Shown here piece by piece: positions 1,843-19,947 of a stretch of 64,000 nt of DNA; the first letter of the stretch is position 1, and each line of letters begins with the position of its first letter. The stretch is from Lactiplantibacillus songbeiensis (lineage in GTDB: Bacteria; Bacillota; Bacilli; Lactobacillales; Lactobacillaceae). Under the pieces are notes generated by a model, which worked only from the letters and a program-made list of their open reading frames with translations, had not been told where the DNA came from and did no database searches. The stretch spans positions 62,001 through 126,000 of the forward strand of contig NZ_BJDL01000008.1 of the NCBI RefSeq assembly GCF_005405125.1. Reading direction: 5' to 3'. Both the position numbers and the translations under genes were made by a program.

Positions 1843-1856
1843 AGAACGCACGTTCT
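1843..1856. promoter_or_regulatory. LexA (SOS) box-like palindrome upstream of the helicase operon
   Basis: AGAACGCACGTTCT is a perfect 6+2+6 dyad that matches the Gram-positive LexA/DinR core GAAC-N4-GTTC, including the R-N-R-Y centre. It ends 20 nt before the proposed TTG start of the helicase gene. The only other promoter-like bases are weak (TTGACG at 1789, TTTAAA at 1814). LexA control is inferred from the site alone. Confidence 0.5.
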
Positions 1857-1876
1857 TAGCCAGCAATATTAAATTA

Positions 1877-4800
1877 TTGAGAAGAGTTGTCAAAAAAGTG
1901 GAAGTATCAGATTTGGATAAATTGTATGTAAAAATGAAACAGGTTCAGCGGGATTGTGAAAGCAAAGATAACGGGTGTTTAATGACGTTGGGGACACCTA
2001 CTGGAAGTGGAAAAACCAGAGGATTAGTACATTTTGCGGGAAAACATCTTGTCGATGATCCAAGTTTTCGACTTATTTTTATTACAGATCAAAAGAAGAA
2101 TCTGTGGCCCGATGCTTTTTATGACGAGGTAATAGCAAATTATGTGAAGCAACATTCTAAATTCAAGGAAAAGGCAGAACGGCAAAAATATCTAGACAAG
2201 CACGTTGTGGTATTGCGGTCACTAATTGATAGCGTTGAGCGATGGATTTCGACAGATTTACCAAGTGGTTTAGATAGCCAAGAGATTACTGCAGCAAAAT
2301 CAGAAGTCAAACGCAAATATGAACTATATAATGTTATTCACAAAATTGATGATAAAGATTATAAGGGTTATGGAGCGTTGTCTACTGCTGAATTTAAGTT
2401 TAGACAAGCAATTTGGAAAAAGTTGGCTAAAGATTTAAATATTGATAGTCCTCTGAACCCATATAAATTACAACTACTTAAAAAATATGTGTTGTCAAAA
2501 GATACAAAAATATCTGTTTGGCTCAGACATTACTTTCCGTCTATAAATATTGAGAATGCACAATTAATTATTACATCAAATGCAAAAGCAATTCGAAGTT
2601 ACAGGCCATTCTTTTCAACAAGGACAAAACGAGTTTGCAATGAAAAGGTTTTGAAAAATGTGCTAATTGTTTTGGACGAAATCGATAGTATGAAACCGAC
2701 TATTACGCAGAATATCATTGAGGATGCCTGCCGCCTGAAAGTACATTTCCTAGAACTGTTCAAACATATTCATGAAGAGTTGAACAGGCCACAAGATAAT
2801 AGATCAATTGCACTGATGAAGATTTTCCAAGAACAGGATAGGTATTCTAAATTAAAAAAGCAGTCCAATCAGCTTAGCGATAAATTTCATTTAACATTTA
2901 ACTACAAAAATATTGATGATAATGCTCAGGATAATTTTATTTTTCGTTTAGCCGATATTACGGTTACTAAAGCAAATACTCCTTGGCAGAGTGTAGTCGA
3001 CTTGAAAGTGCCACAGGTGAGTCTTTCTCAAAAAAACTTGTCAAGAAAACAAGATTCCTTAAACTTTTACGCGATGTTGCGGCAAGTAACATCCTTTATT
3101 AACTATTTTGTGGCCGATGTTGGTGTTTGGGCAGTACGGTACATGCAACAAGAAAATAGTCGACATTCTTCTATAGTTAACGATTTAACTATTATGGATG
3201 CAATGACTACGATTTATACAGATTTTTTTGGCTTGGATGAATCAAGTTCGGAGTTTCAAGCGCTGATCTCTGTTTGGGAAAGCCAACAATTTCAAAGTAA
3301 AATGTTAGTGCAAGATCAAGGCGATGTTATCAGTAATCGATATTTACAAAAATTCGGAGCTCAATTTTTTTCAATGACAGATAATCCAAAGCATAATCTT
3401 TCAACGAGGATTGATGCTGTTTTAATTCAGAAGACGGCAGAAAAATTTTTGCTGAAACTATGTCGAAAAAATTTAGTGTTGGGAATGTCGGCAACAGTAA
3501 ATCTTGAAACTGTGATTGGTAATTTTGATTTTAATTATTTACGAGAACAGTTAGGGATAAGGCTATTAGATGGTCGTGATTATTTACCAGAAGAGACTTT
3601 AAAAAGTTTGGACGTTGGAAAAAGGTGTCAAGAGAAGGGTGTGCGAGTTGTTATAACGGAGACGGAAGGACAGTCTATGGGTTTAGATGGCATTCCCGGG
3701 ATTCAATTGATTCTAAGAAAACGTTTATCAGAACACCAATATAAAGAGTTAGATAAACAGAAGGTAGAATTGTTAACCCAAGAATTTTCTCAAGAAATCA
3801 GAGCCCAACCAAATGCAAAGGATAGGGATTTTGTAGAACAAAGGTATTTAAAACTATTTGATAGTTTTATTGTTTTTTTGTGTAACAAAAATTTAACTTC
3901 ATTTTTGGGATTACAAACGCCACTGCCAAGAAAAAGCACAAAAATTGGTGGTAATCCGATGCGATTAGAGTTCATTCAGTCTGTTTTTGACGGGATAGAA
4001 GACTTGTTAGGTATAATGTCGGATAAGAAACCGCAGTTACGAGTGATTTCTAAAAATAGTTTTCAAGTAGGTTTTTCGATTGAGCAACAATTGGCTGACG
4101 CGTTAGCATTGCCAGAGAAATATAGAACACGAGTATATCTTTTGAGTGCATACAATTCTATCGGTGTAGGACAGAACTTAAATCATCGGTTAAGCGATTT
4201 TGAAAAGCCATTAGTAATAAGTATTGCATCAAAAAACGTATCATCGAAAGATCAGCGACAATTTAAAGTCGATTTGGCAGGTGTTTATTTAGGAAATGTT
4301 ACTCAGATTTTTGAGAATGTAGATGCAATACATGAAATGACGCCACAAACAATTCACTATTTATTACAATTAAGTGCATTAGTTGATAATGGAGAGATTT
4401 CGGTAGCTAAGCTTACTTTGTACCTTCAAAGGTTAAATCGAAGGATACCAGAGAAACAATTTCAAACCACTATGAGTTATGCATGGGCATACACACGAAC
4501 TATACTGCAAGCACTAGGGCGAATGGATCGTACTTTTAACAAATTACCTACGTTACAGATTGTTGTGGATACAAAGGTAATGGATAAATTTAATGTTTAT
4601 GGATTAAAAGATTACCAATTAGATGTGGGGGCAAAGGCGATTCAAATGTATCGACGCCAAAAGAAAGTATATCAAGAAAGTACGCCATTGACGATTAGAT
4701 ATCGAGGCTGGAACGAATTAATCAAAAAAACATATAAAACTGTAGTAGAGGGGTGGGTGGCACATTTACAAAAAGATCCAAAACAAGCCCATCGCTACCA

Positions 4801-5503
4801 GAAGCTGCGTGAGGATCTACTAGTAAATCCAACACTGTATCAGCGGCAATATAGAAAGTTTGAACTAAAGGCGGGATATGAATTTTTACCAATACCAGAA
4901 AAGAGTTATAAAGTTTTTCGTAGAGGAAATGAATTTTCATTTGAAAAGCAGGCAAATGTTAAAATTTCTGCTGACGCAGCTAACTTGCCCTCGATATTGG
5001 CTTATCCTAAAATGTGGGAATATTTTATTGCAAATCATTGGGCAACGGAATGGAAAAAACGTGACTATATTATGAATCCAATTCACTTTGACAGTTACTT
5101 GGGTATCCTTGGTGAAAAAGCAGGGCAGTTTATTTTAAAAGATATTTGGTCCATTGAAGTGGAAAGATTGGCAGGAGATTTAAATGAATTATTCGATGGT
5201 TATATTATTGGGACGCATACACTAGTCGACTTTAAAAACTGGCATCAGGTGCATAGTGAGTCTCTGGAAAACGAGAGAAAAAATGTTGCAAATAAATTGG
5301 GACAGATTTGTCAAAAGACAAATAATTGGGATTGGAAGGTTCTTTTTGTAAATTTGGTTAATAGTGAAGTACCTGATACCTATGTTCAACGCAGTAGTAA
5401 TCATGGAAAAATCTTAGAAGTTCCGGGGTTGATCGATTGTACTGGAAAATTAGCATTATCTTTGTCGGAACGAAAACAATTGGGGGAGTTTGTCAATGAC
5501 TGA
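1877..5503 (+). CDS. Large DinG/DEAD-like superfamily 2 helicase with C-terminal PD-(D/E)XK-like nuclease motif
   Basis: This 1,208-aa protein is probably an NTP-driven nucleic-acid helicase or translocase with a nuclease tail. Walker A is GTPTGSGKT at residues 39-47, Walker B VLDEIDSM near 265-272, the SAT motif (GMSATVN) near 535-540, and a motif VI-like QALGRMDR near 876-883. The end of the protein carries LFDGYIIG ... LVDFKNW near 1103-1121, which fits the D-x(n)-D-x-K core of PD-(D/E)XK nucleases, preceded by a candidate glutamate near 1077. The TTG start has no clear Shine-Dalgarno, so the true start may be a nearby GTG or ATG. The next gene overlaps its stop by 8 nt, so the two are translationally coupled. 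In PIWI-RE loci a DinG-like helicase and a restriction-type nuclease accompany the PIWI protein, and here the nuclease appears fused to the helicase. The coding sequence is visibly more AT-rich than the later chromosomal genes, which suggests transfer. Confidence 0.7.
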   Translation: MRRVVKKVEVSDLDKLYVKMKQVQRDCESKDNGCLMTLGTPTGSGKTRGLVHFAGKHLVDDPSFRLIFITDQKKNLWPDAFYDEVIANYVKQHSKFKEKAERQKYLDKHVVVLRSLIDSVERWISTDLPSGLDSQEITAAKSEVKRKYELYNVIHKIDDKDYKGYGALSTAEFKFRQAIWKKLAKDLNIDSPLNPYKLQLLKKYVLSKDTKISVWLRHYFPSINIENAQLIITSNAKAIRSYRPFFSTRTKRVCNEKVLKNVLIVLDEIDSMKPTITQNIIEDACRLKVHFLELFKHIHEELNRPQDNRSIALMKIFQEQDRYSKLKKQSNQLSDKFHLTFNYKNIDDNAQDNFIFRLADITVTKANTPWQSVVDLKVPQVSLSQKNLSRKQDSLNFYAMLRQVTSFINYFVADVGVWAVRYMQQENSRHSSIVNDLTIMDAMTTIYTDFFGLDESSSEFQALISVWESQQFQSKMLVQDQGDVISNRYLQKFGAQFFSMTDNPKHNLSTRIDAVLIQKTAEKFLLKLCRKNLVLGMSATVNLETVIGNFDFNYLREQLGIRLLDGRDYLPEETLKSLDVGKRCQEKGVRVVITETEGQSMGLDGIPGIQLILRKRLSEHQYKELDKQKVELLTQEFSQEIRAQPNAKDRDFVEQRYLKLFDSFIVFLCNKNLTSFLGLQTPLPRKSTKIGGNPMRLEFIQSVFDGIEDLLGIMSDKKPQLRVISKNSFQVGFSIEQQLADALALPEKYRTRVYLLSAYNSIGVGQNLNHRLSDFEKPLVISIASKNVSSKDQRQFKVDLAGVYLGNVTQIFENVDAIHEMTPQTIHYLLQLSALVDNGEISVAKLTLYLQRLNRRIPEKQFQTTMSYAWAYTRTILQALGRMDRTFNKLPTLQIVVDTKVMDKFNVYGLKDYQLDVGAKAIQMYRRQKKVYQESTPLTIRYRGWNELIKKTYKTVVEGWVAHLQKDPKQAHRYQKLREDLLVNPTLYQRQYRKFELKAGYEFLPIPEKSYKVFRRGNEFSFEKQANVKISADAANLPSILAYPKMWEYFIANHWATEWKKRDYIMNPIHFDSYLGILGEKAGQFILKDIWSIEVERLAGDLNELFDGYIIGTHTLVDFKNWHQVHSESLENERKNVANKLGQICQKTNNWDWKVLFVNLVNSEVPDTYVQRSSNHGKILEVPGLIDCTGKLALSLSERKQLGEFVND

Positions 5504-7598
5504 TAATCACTTTATTTATACCAACCTTCTTGACTTTGAATTAGACTTAGTTGGTTTGACTGCAAGATTTAATTTAGTGTGGTTACACACTGACGAGCCC
5601 CAAAAATTGCCCAGTTTATTCAAAAAGCATCCAGTCTTAGCAATTCGAAGTTTTGTGGATCCTTTCCATCTCGATTGGAAATGGAAAGACCGAAAAAGAG
5701 GTAATTATCTGGTCATGACGGATGAACAAACTGGAAGTCTACCGAATATTCCAAACGGGAAACAAAAAAAGATATCGTTTTCAGAATTAGATGATTATGG
5801 AATCTCTGACAAGACTATAGTATTTATGTTGTTACAGCAAAGGCAATGTTTTGTTCAGCATGGTGTGTTTGCTAATCCTCATCCTTTTAGCCGCTTGATT
5901 GTTGCCCTACCTAATTGGAGGAAACAAAATAAGCAGCGAACTCTTGAAGTTGAGCTAACGAAAAATAGTGTACTTAAGTTAGTTGGACGGACGTATACTG
6001 AGAAAAAGGTAACTTCGGATGATAAGTGGTCGTTCCAAGTTGAAAAAGCTACTGAATGTATTTACCCTTCAGACCGGGGTGAAGAGCGTGGCTTAGTGCA
6101 GGTTAATCGTGGTAAGCGGCAATTTGTGGACTTTTTATCTATTACAGAAGAAAATGCTTTTTTTGACACTAAGGTTGGAGTGATTTATGAATTAATGAGT
6201 TGGTTAAGGACTAGTCGGTTTGAAGATTGTTTCAAAAGTATGCCATCTTTGCGCCCATATCCCTTAACTCATTATACAAAAACTAGAAAAGAACAGAATA
6301 AAGACTTGACAGATGAGATAATAAGTGGAAAAACAATCTTTGTTTATGCCGATAAAGATCTGGTTTCACAACATTTAGCAAAGAAAATAACGAATGCAAT
6401 AAACATGAGTAGAATAAATATAGCAGCGCGTTATTCAGAGAAAAAGCAACTAGGTTTAAATATTCAAGTTGTGCGTGATGTACGAGATAGTCCTGATAAG
6501 GTGGATGGTTATCAAAAAAATCAGGGGATGAGCGTCATTCAACATATTACTGTCGAAAATTTTGGAAAAAACGAAGAGCAAACATTGTCAGATCTGCAGG
6601 TAGATTTTTTGCAGAAAGATAAGGCCATGATCAAGATATTACAAGAATTAGTTATAAAACAAGATATAGCGTTGAGAACACTTCGGATGGTGCCTAAGGA
6701 TGAACTAGAATATTTAACACCATATTCATTTTATTATCTAAATTGGGATACCTCCAAAAAGAAAGCAAAAAGTGAATGGAAAGTTACAATAGGCTGCCTT
6801 AAGATTGACATAAATGGTGGTATGGAATTCAAAACGAGTCACTTGTCCTTTTTGAATTCTAATTCAGAGAGTCTAGATGAACTTCAGCAGGTTGGCGCCA
6901 CTATTATACAGCAGTATAGAAATAAGTATTACCAAGTATTGGGAGTTGTGCGGTTAAATCAAACGTTATATGTTGTATGCAATACATCGTTAATGACGTT
7001 ACCTGCAGTGAAAGATATTCATAAACAATTAGTGTTAGCTAATCCTAGGCGTCTAGTTTCAAGAACGCAACTTTTAGAGACTGCAGTTAAATTGAGATTA
7101 GATAAAAAATATACAGATGACCAATCTAAATTAATCTTTCTCTTAGAAAACATAGCTGACGAAAAATTATCAGTAGCACAATTGCTTATAGAGATAAAGT
7201 CAGCACGTATGAATTGGAAGATGAAAATTCTATCTGAATTCAATAAAAGCGTTCACTCAAAGCTTGGATTTTGGTTGAATCCAAGCCTAAGAAGTAAGAA
7301 TAATCAAGAATATTGGAATGGATTTAAGGGAAGTGGATTGTTATCTATAAATGGGTTACCACATTATTTTGTTGCGACAAATTTACCATTGAAAAAGAAT
7401 TATCGAAAAGCTATTAGGCTAAAACGAATTGATGTCATTGGTGATTCAGATATGAGAGATGACGAACAAGTGAAACTACATTTTGCTGATTTTCAACGCA
7501 TGATGCAAGTTAATTTTGTTCGCAATGGTCAAAGTACTGTTATTCCATTTCCATTAAAATATTTGAGAGAGTACCTTACTGAATACGAAGAATCCTAA
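5496..7598 (+). CDS. Putative PIWI-RE (Argonaute-like) protein, partner of the helicase
   Basis: The ATG at 5496 follows GGGGGAG by 7 nt and overlaps the helicase stop. The protein has 700 aa from this start (702 if a TTG two codons earlier is used) and no obvious enzyme motif. Features I associate with the prokaryotic PIWI-RE family are a tract VIQHITVENF near residue 346, ILQELVIKQDI near 381-391, a C-terminal block with GLPHYFVATNLP near 618-629 and a final PFPLKYLREYL near 683. This order (helicase first, basic C-terminal RNase H-like module with conserved R and E near the end) is why I propose PIWI-RE. I cannot point to a complete RNase H catalytic tetrad, so it may be inactive, as many short prokaryotic Argonautes are. 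An unrelated defence-accessory protein is the alternative. Composition is AT-rich like the helicase. Confidence 0.5.
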   Translation: MTDNHFIYTNLLDFELDLVGLTARFNLVWLHTDEPQKLPSLFKKHPVLAIRSFVDPFHLDWKWKDRKRGNYLVMTDEQTGSLPNIPNGKQKKISFSELDDYGISDKTIVFMLLQQRQCFVQHGVFANPHPFSRLIVALPNWRKQNKQRTLEVELTKNSVLKLVGRTYTEKKVTSDDKWSFQVEKATECIYPSDRGEERGLVQVNRGKRQFVDFLSITEENAFFDTKVGVIYELMSWLRTSRFEDCFKSMPSLRPYPLTHYTKTRKEQNKDLTDEIISGKTIFVYADKDLVSQHLAKKITNAINMSRINIAARYSEKKQLGLNIQVVRDVRDSPDKVDGYQKNQGMSVIQHITVENFGKNEEQTLSDLQVDFLQKDKAMIKILQELVIKQDIALRTLRMVPKDELEYLTPYSFYYLNWDTSKKKAKSEWKVTIGCLKIDINGGMEFKTSHLSFLNSNSESLDELQQVGATIIQQYRNKYYQVLGVVRLNQTLYVVCNTSLMTLPAVKDIHKQLVLANPRRLVSRTQLLETAVKLRLDKKYTDDQSKLIFLLENIADEKLSVAQLLIEIKSARMNWKMKILSEFNKSVHSKLGFWLNPSLRSKNNQEYWNGFKGSGLLSINGLPHYFVATNLPLKKNYRKAIRLKRIDVIGDSDMRDDEQVKLHFADFQRMMQVNFVRNGQSTVIPFPLKYLREYLTEYEES

Positions 7599-7658: not shown

Positions 7659-8405
7659 GTGCCTAGGTATGATACGAATCTCCGTATCACAAATAGATAT
7701 TTAGTCGCAAAGAGTTGGTGCTCTTGGATTGAAGAAAGGCGGTATAGCATGGAAGACCTGTTACGACTATTAGTGAACGAGCCGGAGTTAAGTAAATTTT
7801 ATATGTCGCTAGTGCCGAGTAGTCAGACACGATATCAACAGTAGCTTAATAAAGCTAGAAGTTTTGAAGATCAACAAGCTCGTCTTTTGCATATTCAACA
7901 TGAATTGAATGATGGTCATAGGCAGCTGAAAATCGGTAGTTATATGGGAGATGTACGGGCACCTAACCCGGAAAATGATGATGTGGTTTTGCGTGCAAGA
8001 TTAATTGAAACTAGTGAACGATCGTCGCATCGACAAATGGCAATCTATGTCATCGCGCTGTGTCAGCATGTTGCCGCAGATTTAGGATTCTCGGATGACT
8101 CGGTACTGCAGGAGACGATTGCCATTAATGAACGTTGGCTAGCTGGTGAGATCACCTTCAAAGAAGCACGTGCTTATGCTGGAATTCCGATGAAATATAG
8201 TCGTGAGGCGTCGGATGAACCTCATCGATTATTTTATCGAATGTTACATCAGGCAGCAGTTACGCCGCATGTGAAACGTCATGCGTTGATTGCATCCGAT
8301 TTTGCTTTGGAAGCATTACTGGCGGGAACAGCACAACTGCAATCAGCAACTAAGGAGCGTACTTGGCAGTGTGCGCAATTGTTAGGTACGAGGTCACAAG
8401 AGTAA
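7659..8405 (+). pseudogene. Imm5-like immunity-protein gene interrupted by an in-frame TAG
   Basis: A GTG-started frame of 61 codons ends at TAG (7842-7844), and the same frame continues without a further stop to 8405. The downstream part has the alternating helical pattern seen in Imm5-type putative immunity proteins: acidic and aromatic helices, WLAGEITFKEARAYA, then a His-rich segment HQAAVTPHVKRHALIASDFAL. Either a point mutation has killed the gene or a 172-aa downstream product is made by internal initiation. No toxin gene that it could neutralise lies nearby. The family assignment is by pattern recognition only. Confidence 0.5.
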
Positions 8406-8764: not shown

Positions 8765-9891
8765 GTATTCCCCACATACGTAGGGATGATCCCCGGACGT
8801 ATTCGTCATCAAGAATGAAGTAGACGTATTCCCCACATACGTAGGGATGATCCTAGCTTCTGGCATATCTGCAGGGAAGTATCCCAGTATTCCCCACATA
8901 CGTAGGGATGATCCTGCTGCCGTTTTAGATGATAAATTTAACAAAGAGTATTCCCCACATACGTAGGGATGATCCTAATGCCTTGCTATCATCAGAAAAG
9001 AATTATTGGGTATTCCCCACATACGTAGGGATGATCCTAAGGTCAAAAATGAGGCCGAGCGAACTCATAGGTATTCCCCACATACGTAGGGATGATCCTA
9101 GCCGGTCGGGTGGTGTTAAACCAGTTTTTGTGTATTCCCCACATACGTAGGGATGATCCCTTGCTCACATCAATACCCTTAGCTGCCGCAATGTATTCCC
9201 CACATACGTAGGGATGATCCTATGAAGTTTTATGAGGATGGAAAGATTCCTATGTATTCCCCACATACGTAGGGATGATCCCGTCATAAGCATGTTTGGG
9301 ACGTTATTCAGGTAGTATTCCCCACATACGTAGGGATGATCCCGTCCATACGGAAAACGCCTTGTGATCCCTCAAGTATTCCCCACATACGTAGGGATGA
9401 TCCTCTATCGTTGGTTTATACCAGATCAAGATAAAGGTATTCCCCACATACGTAGGGATGATCCCGCATGTCTTTAATTTTGATGATCGCGACATTAGTA
9501 TTCCCCACATACGTAGGGATGATCCTCTCCAGCGTCCCTACTAAACCGATCATTACCGGTATTCCCCACATACGTAGGGATGATCCTTAGAGCTAAGGCC
9601 GTTTTAATCACGTTACCAGGTATTCCCCACATACGTAGGGATGATCCCTTCAAATTACTGCACGACCGAACCAAAAACATGTATTCCCCACATACGTAGG
9701 GATGATCCTAATCAATATTTGCCAATCGTTGCTGAATTAATGTATTCCCCACATACGTAGGGATGATCCTATGCTTAACCCGGAAGCTGTCGCAAATGCA
9801 GCGTATTCCCCACATACGTAGGGATGATCCCGGCTCACTGACCGTGACTATCTTATCAGGGTCGTATTCCCCACATACGTAGGGATGATTT
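8765..9891 (+). CRISPR. CRISPR array 1, type I-E, 19 repeats and 18 spacers
   Basis: The 28-nt repeat has the form GTATTCCCCAC-ATAC-GTAGGGATGATCC and recurs every 61 nt (33-nt spacers, one of 34). The first 18 copies are identical, and the last (9864-9891) ends GATTT instead of GATCC, marking the distal end. CCC.AC and GT.GGG can form the hairpin expected for Cas6e. All 18 spacers begin with T or C. The locus lies 0.7 kb upstream of the cas operon in the same orientation. I could not identify any spacer target from sequence alone. Confidence 0.98.
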
Positions 9892-10592: not shown

Positions 10593-13358
10593 ATGGATAT
10601 AAAGTTATCTAAACAAGCAACTGTTTTGTGGGCAAAGAAACGATCAGAAGAAGGCCGACAATATTGGTTACCATTAATTGTGCATTTGACGGATGCTCAA
10701 AAGACGATTAACTGGCTCTTCAATCAGTGGTTATGTGATGGTCAGCGGCAAATACTGCAAGGAAGTTTATCAGAAGAGGAAGCCCAAAAATTAGTGAAAT
10801 TTGTGGGTTTTATTCATGATATTGGTAAAGCGACCCCCGCGTTCCAAGCGAAACCATCGTATGATCGTGATGATTCGCTAGATGAACAACTGAAGTCACA
10901 GTTATCACGAGGCGGATTCCTTGATTTTGATGAGTTACGCTTAGCTTCGGCAAACAAATCGCCACATGCTCTGGCTGGAGAAGCTATTGTTGAGAATTTT
11001 GAAATTCCAGAGTCAATTGGTGCAATTATCGGCGGTCATCATGGTAAACCGGAAAGCGAAAGTCCGGATGATCAGTTAGAGGTCTATACGGCAAATTATG
11101 TTCAAAGTGATAATAATTCGTCGCTCCAGGCACCATGGCGACAGGTCCAAAAAGAATTATTTAATTATGGCCTTGTCAGCTCGGGGTATCAGGTTGTTGG
11201 TGATGTACCTGAAATCAAGCAGCCACAAGCTGTTATTTTAGAAGGATTACTTATTATGGCCGATTGGCTATCATCTAGTGAGTATCTAAATCAAGATCAA
11301 AGTGTGCCACTGTTCCCACTGATTGAGATTGATCAATCTTGGCAAAGTATTAATATGGATGAGCGTTTTCGCCACGCAATGCGAGCTTGGGACTTGGGCG
11401 GAAAATGGGAGCCACAAAAAGTTAGTTCAGATGATCCTTACAAAGACCGATGGGGCTTCAGTGCACGGCCGGTGCAAAAGAAAATGACGCAAGCAATCGG
11501 AGCAACTACAGATCCTGGCATGGCAATTGTGGAAGCACCAATGGGACTAGGTAAGACCGAAACTGCGTTAATTGCGGCTGAACAACTGGCTTACGCGACT
11601 GGCCGAGATGGTGTTTTTATGGGATTACCAACACAAGCAACGACCAATGCAATGTTCGATCGGGTTGAGGATTGGGTGGAGATTTTAGCTAAATCTCAAG
11701 ACGAAAATTTTCAGATTAATCTGATGCATGGGAAGAAGCTGTTTAATCGAAAGTACTTAGCGTTACCGAATGCTGTCAATGTATATGCGGACGAAGATAA
11801 AACTGGTTCGGTGGTACTAAATGCCTGGTTTTCTGGTAAGAAAACAATCTTAACGAAGTTTACAGTAGGGACAATTGATAATCTTCTATTAATGGGGTTG
11901 AAACAGAAACACCTTTTCTTACGACATTTGGGATTTAGTGGCAAGGTAGTTATTATTGATGAGGTCCATGCGTATGACTGTTACATGGATTCTTACCTTT
12001 GCAAAGCAATTGAGTGGTTGGGTACTTATCATGTGCCGATTGTTATTTTATCTGCAACTTTGCCTAAGGATAAACGTAATGTATTATTGCGAGCTTATCT
12101 AAAGGGCAAGTATGGTAAATACTATGAAAAAAAGTTAATTGCACCAGCTAATTGGGAAAATGCGCAGGCCTATCCCTTACTCAGTATTCTGGATGGTAAC
12201 CAGATTAAACAAATTAAAGATTTTCCAGGCCTGAGTGACCAGAAACCGCAGACGTTACAAGTACAACGATTGAATGAACCTGATGATGAGTTGATTTCGG
12301 CAGTTGTCGCAAAGATTAGTAATGGTGGTATTGCTGGAATTATCGTTAACACCGTCAAACGTGCGCAGGCGTTGGCCAAATTGGTTCCAGCTGGAATCAA
12401 ACTTATGGTGCTACATTCGGCGTTTCTAGCAACTGATCGAACTGCTCAGGAAACTGATTTACAGGCTGCAATTGGTAAGCATGTTGTGCGCCCTGATAAA
12501 ATGATCGTCATTGGAACACAAGTCTTGGAACAATCACTGGATATTGATTTTGATGTGTTATATACAGATATTGCACCGATGGATTTGATTTTGCAACGAG
12601 CGGGTCGTTTGCATCGGCATCAAATTGCGCGGCCGAAAGGGCTACAACAGCCACAACTTTTCATTATGGGCATTCAGGGACTGAACGATTACGGTACTGG
12701 AAATGAAGCGGTTTACGGCAAATATTTGTTGATGAAAACGGATCACTTTTTAGGAAATACGATCACTTTGCCGGACGATATCTCGCCACTCGTACAACAA
12801 GTCTATGATCCTGCAACTGACCATGAAATAGACGGTATTGATGCGATAAGAGCTGAATTTGATGATGTGATTGCTAAAGAAACCAGTAAAGCTGGTGTCT
12901 TTCAAATCGATGATCCTAATACTAGAATGGGAGCAACGATTCATGATTGGTTAGGTCGTGATCTTGGCAGTGTGGATAAAGATGAACAAAAAGCGAGTGC
13001 AGCAGTTCGCGATATTCAGGAAACGTTGGAAGTTATTCTTGTGCGACATACTGATGAAGGCAATTTCTTGCTGGATGGTCGTAATTTACTAGGAGTTCAG
13101 CCACAAGAGATTGCGCAACAACTGGTCCGGATTCCGTTTATTGTGACACCAGGGCCACAAAAGATTGAGCAAGCAATCAATGACTTGGAAAAGTTGACTA
13201 GTCGTTACTTTGCTGGTTGGCAGAGTAATGTATGGTTAAAAGGGGCCTTAGCTTTACCGTTGGATCAGGATCTTTCAACGAATTTTGAAGGGTGGCGGCT
13301 CACATATTCATCGAGGTTGGGACTTAGTTATGTAAAGGAGGATGATGATGGACAATAA
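10593..13358 (+). CDS. cas3: CRISPR-associated helicase-nuclease Cas3 (type I-E)
   Basis: This 921-aa effector is recruited by Cascade to nick, unwind and degrade target DNA. The N-terminal HD nuclease shows GFIHDIGKATPAFQ (H75, D76), an HAL motif near 130 and GGHHGK near 150. The SF2 helicase follows with Walker A APMGLGKT near 315-322, the DEVH box near 455-459, LSATLP near 487 and QRAGRLHRH near 668. The length is normal for single-chain I-E Cas3. It opens the eight-gene cas operon, and its stop overlaps the start of cse1. Confidence 0.97.
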   Translation: MDIKLSKQATVLWAKKRSEEGRQYWLPLIVHLTDAQKTINWLFNQWLCDGQRQILQGSLSEEEAQKLVKFVGFIHDIGKATPAFQAKPSYDRDDSLDEQLKSQLSRGGFLDFDELRLASANKSPHALAGEAIVENFEIPESIGAIIGGHHGKPESESPDDQLEVYTANYVQSDNNSSLQAPWRQVQKELFNYGLVSSGYQVVGDVPEIKQPQAVILEGLLIMADWLSSSEYLNQDQSVPLFPLIEIDQSWQSINMDERFRHAMRAWDLGGKWEPQKVSSDDPYKDRWGFSARPVQKKMTQAIGATTDPGMAIVEAPMGLGKTETALIAAEQLAYATGRDGVFMGLPTQATTNAMFDRVEDWVEILAKSQDENFQINLMHGKKLFNRKYLALPNAVNVYADEDKTGSVVLNAWFSGKKTILTKFTVGTIDNLLLMGLKQKHLFLRHLGFSGKVVIIDEVHAYDCYMDSYLCKAIEWLGTYHVPIVILSATLPKDKRNVLLRAYLKGKYGKYYEKKLIAPANWENAQAYPLLSILDGNQIKQIKDFPGLSDQKPQTLQVQRLNEPDDELISAVVAKISNGGIAGIIVNTVKRAQALAKLVPAGIKLMVLHSAFLATDRTAQETDLQAAIGKHVVRPDKMIVIGTQVLEQSLDIDFDVLYTDIAPMDLILQRAGRLHRHQIARPKGLQQPQLFIMGIQGLNDYGTGNEAVYGKYLLMKTDHFLGNTITLPDDISPLVQQVYDPATDHEIDGIDAIRAEFDDVIAKETSKAGVFQIDDPNTRMGATIHDWLGRDLGSVDKDEQKASAAVRDIQETLEVILVRHTDEGNFLLDGRNLLGVQPQEIAQQLVRIPFIVTPGPQKIEQAINDLEKLTSRYFAGWQSNVWLKGALALPLDQDLSTNFEGWRLTYSSRLGLSYVKEDDDGQ

Positions 13359-15048
13359 AAGTTTTAATTTGGTTACTAATCCGTGGATCAAAGTGATTGA
13401 AAATCAATCTAATCATGAACGCACAGTTTCCTTGGTAGAGCTATTTAGAAACAGTCAAAGTTATCGACAGTTGGCTGGTGAAATGCGTAGTCAAGATTTA
13501 GCAGTTCTGCGATTGTTATTGGCGATTCTAACAACAGTTTATACACGGTTTGATGCAAACGGGAAGCTTTACCCATGGTTAGAGATGGGAACAAAAGGAC
13601 TTACTGTTGACCAGGAAATGTATGATGATGATGGTCAACATGACTTGCTAGCAACTTGGAAGAGCTTATATCAAACCGGTCATTTTTCTGAGGTTGTTAC
13701 GCAGTACTTAGAGAAGTATCAGGAGCGGTTTAATTTCTTTGGTGGCCAACCTTTTTATCAAGTGACGACTGAAGATTACGATGCTTTGGTGCCTGAAAGC
13801 AAGCGGGTTGCTGCAGGTAAAGGTCAAGTTTCGGTTAAACAAATTAATCGACGGGTTTCTGAGAGTGCGCACACACCGGCAATTTTTGCGTCGAAATCAG
13901 GGAAAGCTAAAGATGAACTTCAACTTGATGAACTGGTTCGCTGGGTCATTGCTTATCAAAACTTTACTGGTGTGACTGATAAAACTAAAGTTGTAACGGC
14001 TGAAAAATTTTCTAATCCGGCTGGGTGGCTTTACCGAATTAATCCCGTTTTTGTCAAAGGAGCATCGTTATTCGAAACATTGATGTTAAATCTGGTCTTA
14101 ATTAACACGCGGAAAAGTGATGCCGAATACGTGTTTCAGAAACCAGTTTGGGAATACGCAACGGTTCACGACTATGTTGAAAGGCGTAAAAAACAGATTT
14201 TACCGGATAATTTAGCCGAATTGTATACTGCTTGGTCACGGGTCTTGCATATTGAGTGGCATGACAATGGGCAACCCACAATATTCAGTGCTGGGATTCC
14301 AATGTTTGCTGCGGATAGTGCATTGATTGAACCCATGACAACTTGGCGACGGGATAAGAAAACCAATGAGTATCGACCGGCAATCAAGTCACTACAAACA
14401 TTAGGAATTGCGATGTGGCGCAATTTTGGTCAATATGTCAAGGTCAAGCAGGCTGATGATATTCATGAACCAGGGCTTGTCATTTGGTTGCGTAAACTTA
14501 AAAAGGCTCATTTAATTGCACGGAATGCGCCGTTGATTTTAAACTCGGTTGCTTTGATTAGTGATGGTAATGCGACTTCACAATCACCAGCGGCTGAATT
14601 AATTGATGATATGCAATTGCAAGCAGATGTCTTATTTGATCCAGAAACCGCGGATTACTGGCCAACACGAATTGAAGGGGTCATTGAGCAGACTCAAGCG
14701 GTCGGTAAAGATTATTATCACTTTGTCAGTGATATTGGAACAATTCGCAACTTGGAAATACGACCGTTTGCGAGTGCAATGAGTGCTAAATTTTATGATC
14801 GTTTAAATGAGCCCTTCAAGGAGTGGCTGGCGGGTTTGACTGGTAAAGATGACCGGGATGCAAAAATCAATTTATGGAAAGACCAACTTAAAGAGATTAC
14901 GAATGAGGCAGTGGCAGATGTAATGAAGTCGCCTTCACCACGTGATATTAAAGGAATCTCGGGTGAAAAAGGACCGTTAAACATATTTATTGCTAAGAAT
15001 CGGTTAATGCATAATTTACGGAAGCATCTTGATTTAGAGAAAGGGTGA
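13348..15048 (+). CDS. cas8e: Cascade large subunit Cse1/CasA (Cas8e)
   Basis: Large subunit of the I-E surveillance complex, which recognises the PAM and recruits Cas3. It begins MDNKSFNLVTNPWIKV, the usual family start ('NLxxxPWIPV'), and reads on for about 566 aa, slightly longer than the E. coli protein. Three ATGs lie in tandem at 13342, 13345 and 13348; the third has the best spacing (6 nt) to AAAGGAGG. The start lies inside cas3, so the genes are translationally coupled. Confidence 0.95.
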   Translation: MDNKSFNLVTNPWIKVIENQSNHERTVSLVELFRNSQSYRQLAGEMRSQDLAVLRLLLAILTTVYTRFDANGKLYPWLEMGTKGLTVDQEMYDDDGQHDLLATWKSLYQTGHFSEVVTQYLEKYQERFNFFGGQPFYQVTTEDYDALVPESKRVAAGKGQVSVKQINRRVSESAHTPAIFASKSGKAKDELQLDELVRWVIAYQNFTGVTDKTKVVTAEKFSNPAGWLYRINPVFVKGASLFETLMLNLVLINTRKSDAEYVFQKPVWEYATVHDYVERRKKQILPDNLAELYTAWSRVLHIEWHDNGQPTIFSAGIPMFAADSALIEPMTTWRRDKKTNEYRPAIKSLQTLGIAMWRNFGQYVKVKQADDIHEPGLVIWLRKLKKAHLIARNAPLILNSVALISDGNATSQSPAAELIDDMQLQADVLFDPETADYWPTRIEGVIEQTQAVGKDYYHFVSDIGTIRNLEIRPFASAMSAKFYDRLNEPFKEWLAGLTGKDDRDAKINLWKDQLKEITNEAVADVMKSPSPRDIKGISGEKGPLNIFIAKNRLMHNLRKHLDLEKG

Positions 15049-15057
15049 TAAACAGTA

Positions 15058-15660
15058 ATGACCTATGAAATTGAAGCAACAGTCAATCGAATTATTAAGT
15101 TATTAGATCGGGATGGTAACCGTGACAAAGCAACTCTAAGTAGTCTGATTAATGCGCCGACAATCACAAGTCAGCGCGCGCAGGCAGTCTGGCCAATTTT
15201 GATGGCCAACCTAGACAAAAATCAGCTGAGCCATACTGGCGTCCCGACCCGAGGCGAGGTAGCGGTATATACGGCAATTCGTTTTTATGCGATTTATCAG
15301 CAAGGGCAAGACCAATTTGTTTATGGTAAGGCCAGTGGTGACCAACCAGATGGTATCAAGTTTTTCACAGCGTTAGCGAAGTTACGTCAAAATGAGGAAA
15401 CGCGTAAGGCGTTGGATAGTCGTGTTCAAAATGTTTTAGCAACGACCAATGCGGCCAGTGTGATTAATGGCCTTTCGCATTTGAATAGTCTGTTGAAGGG
15501 GCGCAATGGTGTCCAAAAAATAGACTTTGCTTGGCTCGCGCAGGACTTATATCGGCTGCAGGCCAGTTATGAACAAGCAACTCAGGTTCGTTTACTTTGG
15601 GGACAACAATATTTTAGGGTGCAACTAGCAACGACCAAAACTGAAGGGGTAAAAAACTAA
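15058..15660 (+). CDS. cse2: Cascade small subunit Cse2/CasB
   Basis: This 200-aa mostly helical protein is in the fixed cse2 position between cse1 and cas7e. The family pattern includes 'GVPTRGEVAVYTAIRFYAIYQ' near 60-80, comparable to the conserved 'a.y..l.lfa.hq' helix. Two copies normally form the belly of Cascade and stabilise the R-loop. Its TAA overlaps the next ATG (TAATG). Confidence 0.92.
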   Translation: MTYEIEATVNRIIKLLDRDGNRDKATLSSLINAPTITSQRAQAVWPILMANLDKNQLSHTGVPTRGEVAVYTAIRFYAIYQQGQDQFVYGKASGDQPDGIKFFTALAKLRQNEETRKALDSRVQNVLATTNAASVINGLSHLNSLLKGRNGVQKIDFAWLAQDLYRLQASYEQATQVRLLWGQQYFRVQLATTKTEGVKN

Positions 15661-16733
15661 TGACTAAACAAAATTTATATGTTGACTTAAGTGTATTGCA
15701 GACAGTGCCATCATCAAATATTAATCGTGATGATACTGGCGCACCTAAAACAGCGCTATATGGTGGGGTAACACGTGCGCGCGTTTCTTCGCAAAGTTGG
15801 AAAAGAGCAGTACGATTAGCTTTCAAGGAAGATAACGTTTCTGTTGGAACGCGAACCAAAGAAGCGGCCAAATTGTTGACTGCTAAGTTAAAAGAACTTG
15901 AGCCAGCACTGGATGATGAAGCGGCATTAGACAAAACTAGTAAACTCTTTAAAACTGTTGGGATTAAGTTGAATAAAGATAACGAGACCGGAGCATTATT
16001 GCTGATTAGTCGTGGTCAAATTACGAAGTTAGCTCAATATGCCATTGATAATGAAACTTTGGATAAAAAAGAAGTTAAAAAGGTTTTAAATGGTGATCAA
16101 TCTGTTGATTTAGCCTTGTTTGGTCGAATGGTTGCGGATAATCCGGAATTAAATGTCGATGCTTCGGCGCAAGTGGCGCATGCCGTTTCAACGCATGAAG
16201 TAGTTCCAGAGTATGATTACTTTACGGCTTTGGATGATGAACAGCCAGAAGATGCAACTGGTGCGGCGATGTTGGGAACGATTAATTTTAACTCGGCGAC
16301 ATTATATCGTTACGCTAATTTGAATATGAATGAATTAGTGCATAACTTGGATGAAAAGGATGCTATTCAAGGCGCCACAGCCTTTATTAAAGATTTCTTG
16401 TTATCCATGCCAGATGGTAAGCAGAATACTTTCGCAAATAAAACGTTGCCAAGCTATGTCATGATTACGATTCGGACGGATACCCCGGTCAATTTGGTGT
16501 CTGCATTTGAAGAACCAGTCACATCAAGAAATGGTTATGTCGGACCTTCCATTAAGCGGATTGAAGGCGAATATGAACGCACCTTGCAATATGTCGATAA
16601 ACCAATCTTAAATCTAGTATTAAGTAAGGATGAGTCAAAAGTTGGTGAACAAGCTGCTAATGTCACTGAACTTTTAGAGAGAGTCACTGCGGCTTTAACG
16701 AAGGCGGTTCAGGATGAAAACATTAACGATTAA
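15660..16733 (+). CDS. cas7e: Cascade backbone subunit Cas7e/CasC
   Basis: This 357-aa RAMP protein forms the six-copy crRNA backbone. It begins with LYVDLSVLQTVPSSNINRDD and GAPKTALYGG, followed by RARVSSQSWKRAVR, all typical of Cse4/CasC. The C-terminal part carries the usual 'PSYVMITIRTDTPVNLVSAFE' strand. It overlaps cse2 by one base and cas5e by 20 bases. Confidence 0.96.
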   Translation: MTKQNLYVDLSVLQTVPSSNINRDDTGAPKTALYGGVTRARVSSQSWKRAVRLAFKEDNVSVGTRTKEAAKLLTAKLKELEPALDDEAALDKTSKLFKTVGIKLNKDNETGALLLISRGQITKLAQYAIDNETLDKKEVKKVLNGDQSVDLALFGRMVADNPELNVDASAQVAHAVSTHEVVPEYDYFTALDDEQPEDATGAAMLGTINFNSATLYRYANLNMNELVHNLDEKDAIQGATAFIKDFLLSMPDGKQNTFANKTLPSYVMITIRTDTPVNLVSAFEEPVTSRNGYVGPSIKRIEGEYERTLQYVDKPILNLVLSKDESKVGEQAANVTELLERVTAALTKAVQDENIND

Positions 16734-17415
16734 ATTAACAGCACCATTACAGTCGTATGGTAATGAGGCAACTTTTGAACGCCGTACCACTAATGACTAT
16801 CCAACCAAAAGTGCAGTAATTGGGATGGTTGCGGCTGCATTGGGCTATCGACGTACTGATGAGCGAATTTTAGTGCTAAATGAGTTGGCTTTTGCGGTCA
16901 GAATCGATCAAGTTGGAAAAAACCTGACAGATTATCAAACGGTTGAATGGAAGAAAAACACGCGGAAAATTACGTATCGCGACTATCTTCAAGATGCGGT
17001 TTTTGTGGTAGCACTTGGGAGTCAAGATGATCAATTAATTGATCATATCAAGGTTGCCTTAAAACATCCATATTTTCCATTATTTTTAGGCCGACGTTCG
17101 AATGCGCCTGCTGGTGTATTAGATATTCGTGAATTTCCAGAAGAAACACCAGTTGCTGTGCTTAAAAAGTTAACTTGGCAGGCAGCAAATTGGTATCAAA
17201 GGAGTTGTCGCAGTCAATCAATCGAGATTGTTGCTGATGCGAATTTAATACCGGCAGCAGGTAGCGCTATGGTAAAAGATCAGGTCGGTTCATTTGATCA
17301 ACGTCATCGTAGTTATCGTTTTCGAGCTATTACTAAGACCAGGGTTAGTCTCGACCAGCTTGATGTGCAGGTTAATGAGCCTGAAACGCAACATGATATT
17401 ATAGATCAGCTCTAG
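16714..17415 (+). CDS. cas5e: Cascade subunit Cas5e/CasD
   Basis: This 233-aa RAMP protein caps the 5' handle of the crRNA. The start TIKLTAPLQSYGNEATFERR and then TNDYPTKSAVIGMVAAALG is the hallmark Cas5 N-terminus. A basic C-terminal region (GSFDQRHRSYRFRA) is typical of CasD. The start lies inside the end of cas7e. Confidence 0.95.
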   Translation: MKTLTIKLTAPLQSYGNEATFERRTTNDYPTKSAVIGMVAAALGYRRTDERILVLNELAFAVRIDQVGKNLTDYQTVEWKKNTRKITYRDYLQDAVFVVALGSQDDQLIDHIKVALKHPYFPLFLGRRSNAPAGVLDIREFPEETPVAVLKKLTWQAANWYQRSCRSQSIEIVADANLIPAAGSAMVKDQVGSFDQRHRSYRFRAITKTRVSLDQLDVQVNEPETQHDIIDQL

Positions 17416-17430
17416 AAAGGGGGACAGTTT

Positions 17431-19056
<1,626 letters not shown>

Positions 19057-19057
<1 letters not shown>

Positions 19058-19947
19058 TGATTGTGATTACTTTAACGAAAGTCCCGAAGTCATTACGAGG
19101 TGATCTGACGAAGTGGTATCAGGAAATTCAAACGGGTGTTTATGTGGGCAATGTTAGTGCACGTATTCGAGATTCGTTATGGGACAGAATTATGAAAAAT
19201 ATTGGTCATGGCGAAGCAACGATGGTCTATAACACTAATAATGAGTTGGGTTATCAGTTTCGAACGACGCGTAAAGATCATGAGGTTGCTGATTTCGATG
19301 GGATTCCGCTAATGATGCATTTAAATGTTTCATCAGGAGTGGTTGACCATGGGTTTAGCAATGCGGCAAAATTTCATAAAGCAAAGATAATGATGAAAAA
19401 GCGTGGTCATAAAGCGGTTCAGTCTGAAAAAACACCGATAGTTGCAATTGATCTTGAAACTACTGGTTTAGATCCGACGCAGGATGAAATTATCTCAATC
19501 GGTGCAGTCAAGCGAGTGAAGGGTAATCAAGTAGATCATTTTTACAAGTTAATTCAGAGTGATCGAAAAATCCCTAAAAAGATTGTTGAGTTAACTCATA
19601 TCACTTCTGAAATGCTAGTGTCAAAAGGGGCTAGTTTAAGTGATGGGTTGCAGGCATTACGGGTGTTTTTAGGTGATTTGCCGGTAGTTGGTTATAATGC
19701 ACACTTTGATGGGTTGTTTTTGACCAATGGTTTTAGAAAAATTGATCAATCAGATTTGTCTAACAAGGTATTAGATCTGATGCCAATGGTGAAGAAGTCG
19801 GATAAGTTTTTGGATAATTATCGACTACAAACTGTATTGAATGAGTACAAAATTGAAAATAAAAATCCACATAACTCGTTGTCAGATGCTGAGGCAACTT
19901 TTAAACTAGCAATCAAACTAATTGAAAATGGGGTTTTGAAAATTTAA
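19057..19947 (+). CDS. cas2: Cas2 fused to a DnaQ-like DEDDh 3'-5' exonuclease
   Basis: Residues 1-95 are a type I-E Cas2 (MIVITLTKVPKSLRGDLTKW, VYVGNVSARIRDSLW). A linker leads into a DEDDh exonuclease at about 126-296, with D132 and E134 in AIDLETTGL, D218 in GYNAHFDGL, and H272 and D277 in PHNSLSDAEA. All five catalytic positions are present, so the nuclease is probably active. Such fusions are known in streptococci and lactobacilli, where the exonuclease trims prespacers to their final length. The last 33 nt of the gene overlap the leader of array 2. Confidence 0.97.

Follow-up and report, generated by a model that had tools for sequence, protein, structure and literature searches.

The window analyzed here is a 64,000 nt stretch of Lactiplantibacillus songbeiensis (assembly GCF_005405125.1, contig NZ_BJDL01000008.1, positions 62,001–126,000 of the forward strand; genome size 3.03 Mb). 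Two overlapping genes on its + strand encode a helicase-nuclease and an Argonaute-like protein. We assign this pair, with a probability of about 0.93, to ddmD-ddmE, a DNA-guided plasmid-elimination system. An earlier note had read it as a compact two-gene PIWI-RE module embedded in a CRISPR locus. The two open reading frames (ORFs) described there, of 1,208 and 702 amino acids (aa), were recovered at 1877–5503 and 5490–7598 on the + strand. Their overlap of 8 nt also stands, counted from ATG 5496 to the end of the ddmD stop codon at 5503, and both overlapping genes are real and intact. The feature start at 1843 was misplaced: the preceding stop codon ends at this position, and ddmD begins at TTG 1877 or perhaps at GTG 1898. 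The main features of the pair are listed below, with DdmD counts taken from an alignment of 15 sequences that includes the window protein and DdmE counts from 14 sequences.

1877–5503, + strand: ddmD, superfamily 2 (SF2) helicase with C-terminal PD-(D/E)XK nuclease, 1,208 aa from TTG 1877
2000–2017, + strand: Walker A motif TGSGKT, DdmD residues 42–47; G43, G45 and K46 invariant in 15/15 DdmDs
2675–2686, + strand: DEID box, DdmD residues 267–270; D267, E268 and D270 invariant in 15/15
5114–5236, + strand: PD-(D/E)XK core of DdmD, E1080...D1107...D1118-F-K1120; all four residues invariant in 15/15
5482–5488, + strand: GGGGGAG, read directly from the letters inside the end of ddmD; likely Shine-Dalgarno sequence of ddmE
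5496–7598, + strand: ddmE, long-type prokaryotic Argonaute, 700 aa from ATG 5496 or 702 aa from TTG 5490
6510–6551, + strand: tract Y341...Q351-H352-I-T354 of DdmE, which holds VIQHIT; all four residues invariant in 14/14 DdmEs
7509–7571, + strand: C-terminal motif of DdmE, residues 674–694, which holds the start of PFPLKYLREY; 14/14

Relation of the gene pair to DdmDE and similar systems

In a phmmer search of the PDB, the 1,208-aa protein aligned over residues 31–1207 with DdmD of L. casei (9ix4_A; expect value (E) 2.5e-148). The L. casei DdmDE structures (9ix4, 9iw3, 9ixm) are reportedly from Huang et al. 2024 (Cell Res.). Other DdmD entries of the PDB, including 9ezx and 9bf1 from V. cholerae, matched part of the sequence at E of about 2e-17, and the PADLOC model for DdmD was matched at 2.1e-18. 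Besides the helicase and nuclease motifs listed above, residues S538-A539-T540, Q878, G881, R882 and R885 were invariant in all 15 aligned DdmDs. We modeled the last 260 aa with AlphaFold2 (predicted local distance difference test (pLDDT) 82.8) and searched the model against the PDB with Foldseek. Ranks 1–20 were all DdmD chains at E <= 1.4e-9, led by L. casei DdmD with a TMq of 0.87, and beyond these 20 chains no match was found at E <= 0.001. The C-terminal nuclease that had been proposed for the helicase is thus borne out, both by the invariance of E1080, D1107, D1118 and K1120 and by the fold match to L. casei DdmD. The fusion of helicase and nuclease, formerly taken as the step that had compacted a PIWI-RE system into two genes, is the normal published DdmD architecture.

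The 702-aa protein aligned with L. casei DdmE (9iw3_A) over residues 8–696 at E 2.8e-41. Its AlphaFold2 model, computed from 14 input sequences (pLDDT 79.2, predicted template-modeling score 0.78), had as top Foldseek matches in the PDB the L. casei DdmE chains 9ixm_B and 9iw3_A, with a template-modeling score (TM) of 0.84 (0.84/0.83 to 9ixm_B). Four more DdmE chains followed with TM to the query of 0.55–0.70, and then Argonautes such as human Ago2. The expected PIWI-type fold was therefore present, with DdmE rather than PIWI-RE proteins as the closest structures. The sequence tracts that had been quoted from this protein are all found in it, and those including VIQHIT and the start of PFPLKYLREY are DdmE family signatures. 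The residue K390, beyond the Y341–T354 tract, is K in 13 of the 14 aligned DdmEs and R in the remaining one; tract and K390 together possibly form the pocket of a MID domain that holds the guide 5′ end. In the C-terminal motif, T683, P686, P688, K690, Y691 and E694 were invariant in 14/14. The two strands expected to hold the PIWI catalytic Asp showed no conserved Asp in the 14 DdmEs, which appears in line with the catalytic inactivity of DdmE stated in available excerpts of PMC12409362.

Several points weigh against the assignment. With the PADLOC DdmE model, matches at E <= 1 were obtained for 8 of the 14 aligned sequences, the strongest at 2.1e-9, and none for the window DdmE itself, which is only 21–29% identical to the other DdmEs in the alignment. 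The PIWI active-site comparison was made by strand position and not by superposition. The start of ddmD is uncertain as well, with GTG 1898 suggested by shorter relatives.

As a PIWI-RE system, the pair would consist of a pPIWI-RE protein of 702 aa and a fused helicase-nuclease, working with RNA guides and R-loops. The PIWI-type fold and a partner that joins nuclease and helicase are indeed present, features shared with the pPIWI-RE triads, which combine a PIWI fold, a helicase and a restriction-type nuclease (excerpts of PMC3702460). In these triads, however, a restriction endonuclease (REase), a DinG-type helicase and the PIWI protein are encoded by three genes, with the nuclease separate (excerpts of PMC3702460), whereas the window holds two genes only and lacks the order REase-DinG-PIWI. 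The 702-aa protein matched no Pfam model; specifically, no pPIWI_RE model was matched by it at E <= 10 or by the 14 aligned DdmEs at E <= 1, in a test in which the HMMER filters discard most weak matches. A genome search with PF13032 found nothing, which is a weak test since 14 controls likewise matched nowhere. For the helicase, the sole Pfam trace was a sub-threshold ResIII match. The pPIWI-RE family is described as having an absolutely conserved R and E (excerpts of PMC3702460); Pfam models and gene order set the window pair apart from it. The best fold matches of the 702-aa protein were to DdmE, and R-loops are not indicated, DdmE having been published with single-stranded DNA guides (excerpts of PMC12409362). 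The earlier note had named a confident match to another family beforehand as refuting PIWI-RE, and such a match, to DdmDE, was found. Given the Pfam negatives and the DdmE fold match, we reject membership in PIWI-RE, a reading that we hold to be extremely improbable. What stands of it is an Argonaute/PIWI-type protein paired with a helicase-nuclease, probably in a guide-dependent defense, with the family given by the match to the solved DdmD and DdmE.

The sister class of anti-plasmid systems typified by ApsAB of E. coli ST38 follows the same logic, pairing the helicase-nuclease ApsA with the Argonaute-like ApsB, and ApsA and DdmD have been placed in one broad family (excerpts of PMC11096173). 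The same source, as far as available, reports that ApsB and DdmE lack sequence similarity and differ in predicted structure, whereas the partner in the window matches DdmE at 2.8e-41. Together with the match of the helicase to DdmD at 2.5e-148, the published description speaks against placing the window pair with ApsA and ApsB, and an ApsAB-type system is exceedingly unlikely here.

Within DdmDE, the pair resembles that of L. casei in composition (helicase-nuclease plus long Argonaute) and fold, and both proteins align over nearly their full length; it differs in sequence, with no more than 23% identity for DdmE when the structures are aligned. The window copy also adjoins a type I-E CRISPR locus, and its ddmD is preceded by a LexA-box-like site, a comparison that does not extend to the L. 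casei promoter. With the V. cholerae system (9ezx, 9ezy, 9bf1, 9bgk and others) it shares the same two genes and the folds of the nuclease region and of DdmE, whereas the DdmD sequence is only partly matched (E 2e-17). A gene for a helix-turn-helix (HTH)-WYL protein lies upstream in the V. cholerae operon (excerpts of PMC12409362); in the window, the 1.8 kb before ddmD contain no listed ORF of more than 61 aa, and the LexA-box-like site is found instead.

By analogy, the mechanism published for V. cholerae and L. casei DdmDE (excerpts of PMC12409362) may be carried over to the window pair, known here from family, fold, conserved residues and gene order. DdmE, as a long Argonaute whose PIWI fold lacks the cutting residues, would carry a short single-stranded DNA guide, pair with plasmid DNA and then recruit DdmD, which before recruitment would be held as an inactive dimer. 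Once recruited, DdmD would load on the displaced strand and run 5′ to 3′ by its SF2 motor, and its PD-(D/E)XK domain would cut, so that the plasmid would be lost.

Distribution of ddmDE among relatives

With the own genome included in each count, DdmE was matched in 4 of the 21 genus genomes and in 23 of the 397 family genomes, and DdmD in 13 of 395 genomes of the order. Among the four genus matches, the one in G006 is fragmentary and lies at the end of a contig. Of the 22 other genomes with a ddmE match, 18 show ddmD by tblastn immediately 5′ of ddmE and in the same orientation. Because these two genes recur together in this way across the family, their arrangement is far beyond chance. The matches in G006 and G072, two of the remaining four genomes, lie at contig ends, and those in G393 and G064 are weak and without ddmD. 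These last two (loci L062 and L063) lie in shorter frames and cover the C-terminal half of DdmE at 22% identity, with 59% across the final 32 aa; we regard them as decayed, truncated or distant DdmE. Broken copies of ddmDE exist as well, those of G314 and G030 among them.

A search of 72,556 plasmid records gave no match to ddmE and two to ddmD, one from Nostoc with 22.8% identity across 96% and one from Cetobacterium that covers 5% of the query. A peptide-pattern search of viral contigs with one sequence yielded no relative. From these plasmid-record and viral-contig searches, mobile spread of ddmDE was rejected.

The CRISPR neighborhood and the variable spot

The pair lies, as had been described, between relic repeats and a CRISPR array; a set of type I-E cas genes follows.

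51–78, + strand: degenerate CRISPR repeat with 5 mismatches that bounds the variable spot on the left; near 115 lies a weaker repeat
7887–8405, + strand: Imm5-like putative immunity gene (PF21805, E 1.2e-21), between ddmE and array 1
~8765–9889, + strand: CRISPR array 1 with 19 copies of the commonest 20-mer, right neighbor of the spot
10593–19947, + strand: type I-E cas operon (cas3, cse1, cse2, cas7, cas5, cas6, cas1, cas2-exonuclease), with Pfam matches on all eight ORFs

The names cas7 and cas6 are those that we take to correspond to Cas_CT1975 and CRISPR_assoc. A second array follows the cas operon, giving two arrays and one type I-E operon in the window. At 19057–19947, Cas2 is fused to an exonuclease domain of the RNase T/DnaQ type. 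One spacer of array 1 (8976–9010) is identical over 35/35 nt to the L. pentosus plasmid NZ_CP129545.1, where it falls under a gene for a DNA N-6-adenine-methyltransferase, and two Levilactobacillus plasmids match it at 97% and 94%.

A functional coupling of DdmDE to the type I-E system, by shared guides or adaptation, could be imagined from the position of ddmDE between relic repeats and array 1. None of the 22 other ddmE genomes, however, had an array or type I-E Cas protein within the 20–40 kb fetched from each, with other cas types outside the search (an array was counted from at least 3 exact copies of a 20-mer, a Cas match when it scored over 45 bits against the I-E proteins of the window). 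The 19 named loci, with flanks of up to 10 kb, were likewise without array or I-E Cas; 11 of them are on the same contigs as in the set of 22 genomes. The genus mates G008 and G013, which have ddmDE, carry cas3 elsewhere, on another contig in one case and at a distance of 1.48 Mb in the other. Conversely, the closest cas3 genes (88%) belong to G010 and G002, neither of which has a ddmE match. In G010, relic repeats directly follow a gene that is presumably rlmH, and other genes fill the spot before array 1. G002 yielded no relic repeat, and ahead of its array lies a short ORF that we take to be transposase-like. As these close I-E relatives have other content at the spot, the relic repeats and the array are independent of ddmDE. 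On this neighborhood evidence we reject the coupling, which is highly improbable: the type I-E locus described earlier is real, but its setting next to ddmDE was found, within the stretches covered, in this genome only and is not conserved. The CRISPR setting thus looks incidental, and the pair would probably act independently of the adjoining locus.

ddmDE occupies a variable spot. The genes are AT-rich, as had been stated, with a GC content of 35.2% (ddmD) and 34.7% (ddmE) versus 41.6% for the cas region (10593–19947) and 45.2% for 23228–64000; this low GC content fits acquisition. In the ~1.7 kb between the relic repeats and ddmD (150–1840), no ORF of more than 61 aa is listed, and the region is perhaps decayed coding sequence. 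Two neighbors of ddmE were considered as a third gene of the system. The 61-aa ORF at 7659–7844 had no Pfam match, and near ddmE in the 22 other genomes tblastn did not recover it at E <= 1e-4. For the Imm5-like gene, tblastn near ddmE in the same genomes gave no match at E <= 1e-4 either, and on these results we count neither of the two as a component of DdmDE.

A LexA-box-like site before ddmD

A short palindrome lies directly upstream of ddmD.

1844–1855, unstranded: LexA/DinR-box-like palindrome GAACGCACGTTC within AGAACGCACGTTCT, 21 nt before TTG 1877

It is the sole GAACN4GTTC site in the window, and none was found in the 40 kb upstream. Genome-wide there are 22 such sites, and we read the gene context for 15 of them, with Pfam labels drawn from the first 110 residues. 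The core precedes recA (by 76 nt), two genes for Y-family polymerases of the IMS family (45 and 7 nt), addB (21 nt) and ddmD (21 nt). A small ORF 12 nt after one further site is presumably YolD-like and had no Pfam match. Four of the 15 sites are inside large ORFs, and the rest, beyond the named genes, stand before unlabeled ORFs or none. The 14-mer AGAACGCACGTTCT scored 12/14 on what we take to be the Gram-positive LexA consensus.

The window site also agrees in 12 of 14 letters with the lexA-DinR motif AGAACGTACGTTCG, which is given as the B. subtilis consensus and has been reported in L. plantarum upstream of lexA, rexA, rexB and further genes affected by peroxide (excerpts of PMC2174512). 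LexA is described as universal within Lactobacillaceae, and its predicted targets include addBA (excerpts of PMC3616900).

The exact core was present before ddmD at 3 of 28 loci (G068 and L121, being the same, entered once): the window, Loigolactobacillus bifermentans (G222, identical to L073) and Secundilactobacillus paracollinoides (L082), where ddmDE is fragmented. These loci span three genera, and their 14-mers start at −26 to −37 from the position aligned to residue 1. In a random background of 6,000 windows of 240 nt, the best score was at least 12 in 119 and at least 13 in 16. For the 28 loci, this gives expectations of ~0.56 at a score of at least 12 and ~0.07 at a score of at least 13, versus 3 and 2 seen.

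These numbers suggest that transcription of ddmDE in this genome may be under LexA (SOS) control. Against this speak the 25 of 28 ddmD loci without the core and the fact that the window site had been noticed ahead of the enrichment test. The consensus used for scoring is, moreover, the one we assume, and GAACN4GTTC is not enriched genome-wide, with 22 sites versus 40 for the reversed control pattern; therefore, the core alone proves little. L108 and L152, outside the 28-locus count, lack the core as well, and three genus searches for more LexA boxes before ddmD brought up no new intact system. In the literature we found no report of SOS control of DdmDE, a weak test as the main DdmDE papers lay outside the coverage. 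In the parts available, PMC9608740 mentions both DdmDE and lexA, at different places and without joining them, PMC13104627 contains "ddme" only as part of a DOI and no DdmDE-LexA link, and a review on DinG names an Argonaute-like domain and not DdmDE. Taking all this together, we see an even chance that in some Lactobacillaceae LexA represses ddmDE and that DNA damage or single-stranded plasmid DNA would relieve this repression, thereby arming the Argonaute when single-stranded DNA, a possible source of guides, accumulates.

For V. cholerae DdmDE, the available excerpts of PMC12409362 mention low expression and a gene for a WYL-type regulator, and do not name a damage response. The pair in L. 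songbeiensis belongs to the published DdmDE kind, which corrects its family from a compact PIWI-RE system to a Lactobacillaceae DdmDE, and the possible SOS link is its only new element, itself uncertain. If true, plasmid defense would be tied to the SOS response through the LexA box that precedes ddmD in three genera. This may also have a bearing on plasmid instability in industrial lactic acid bacteria.

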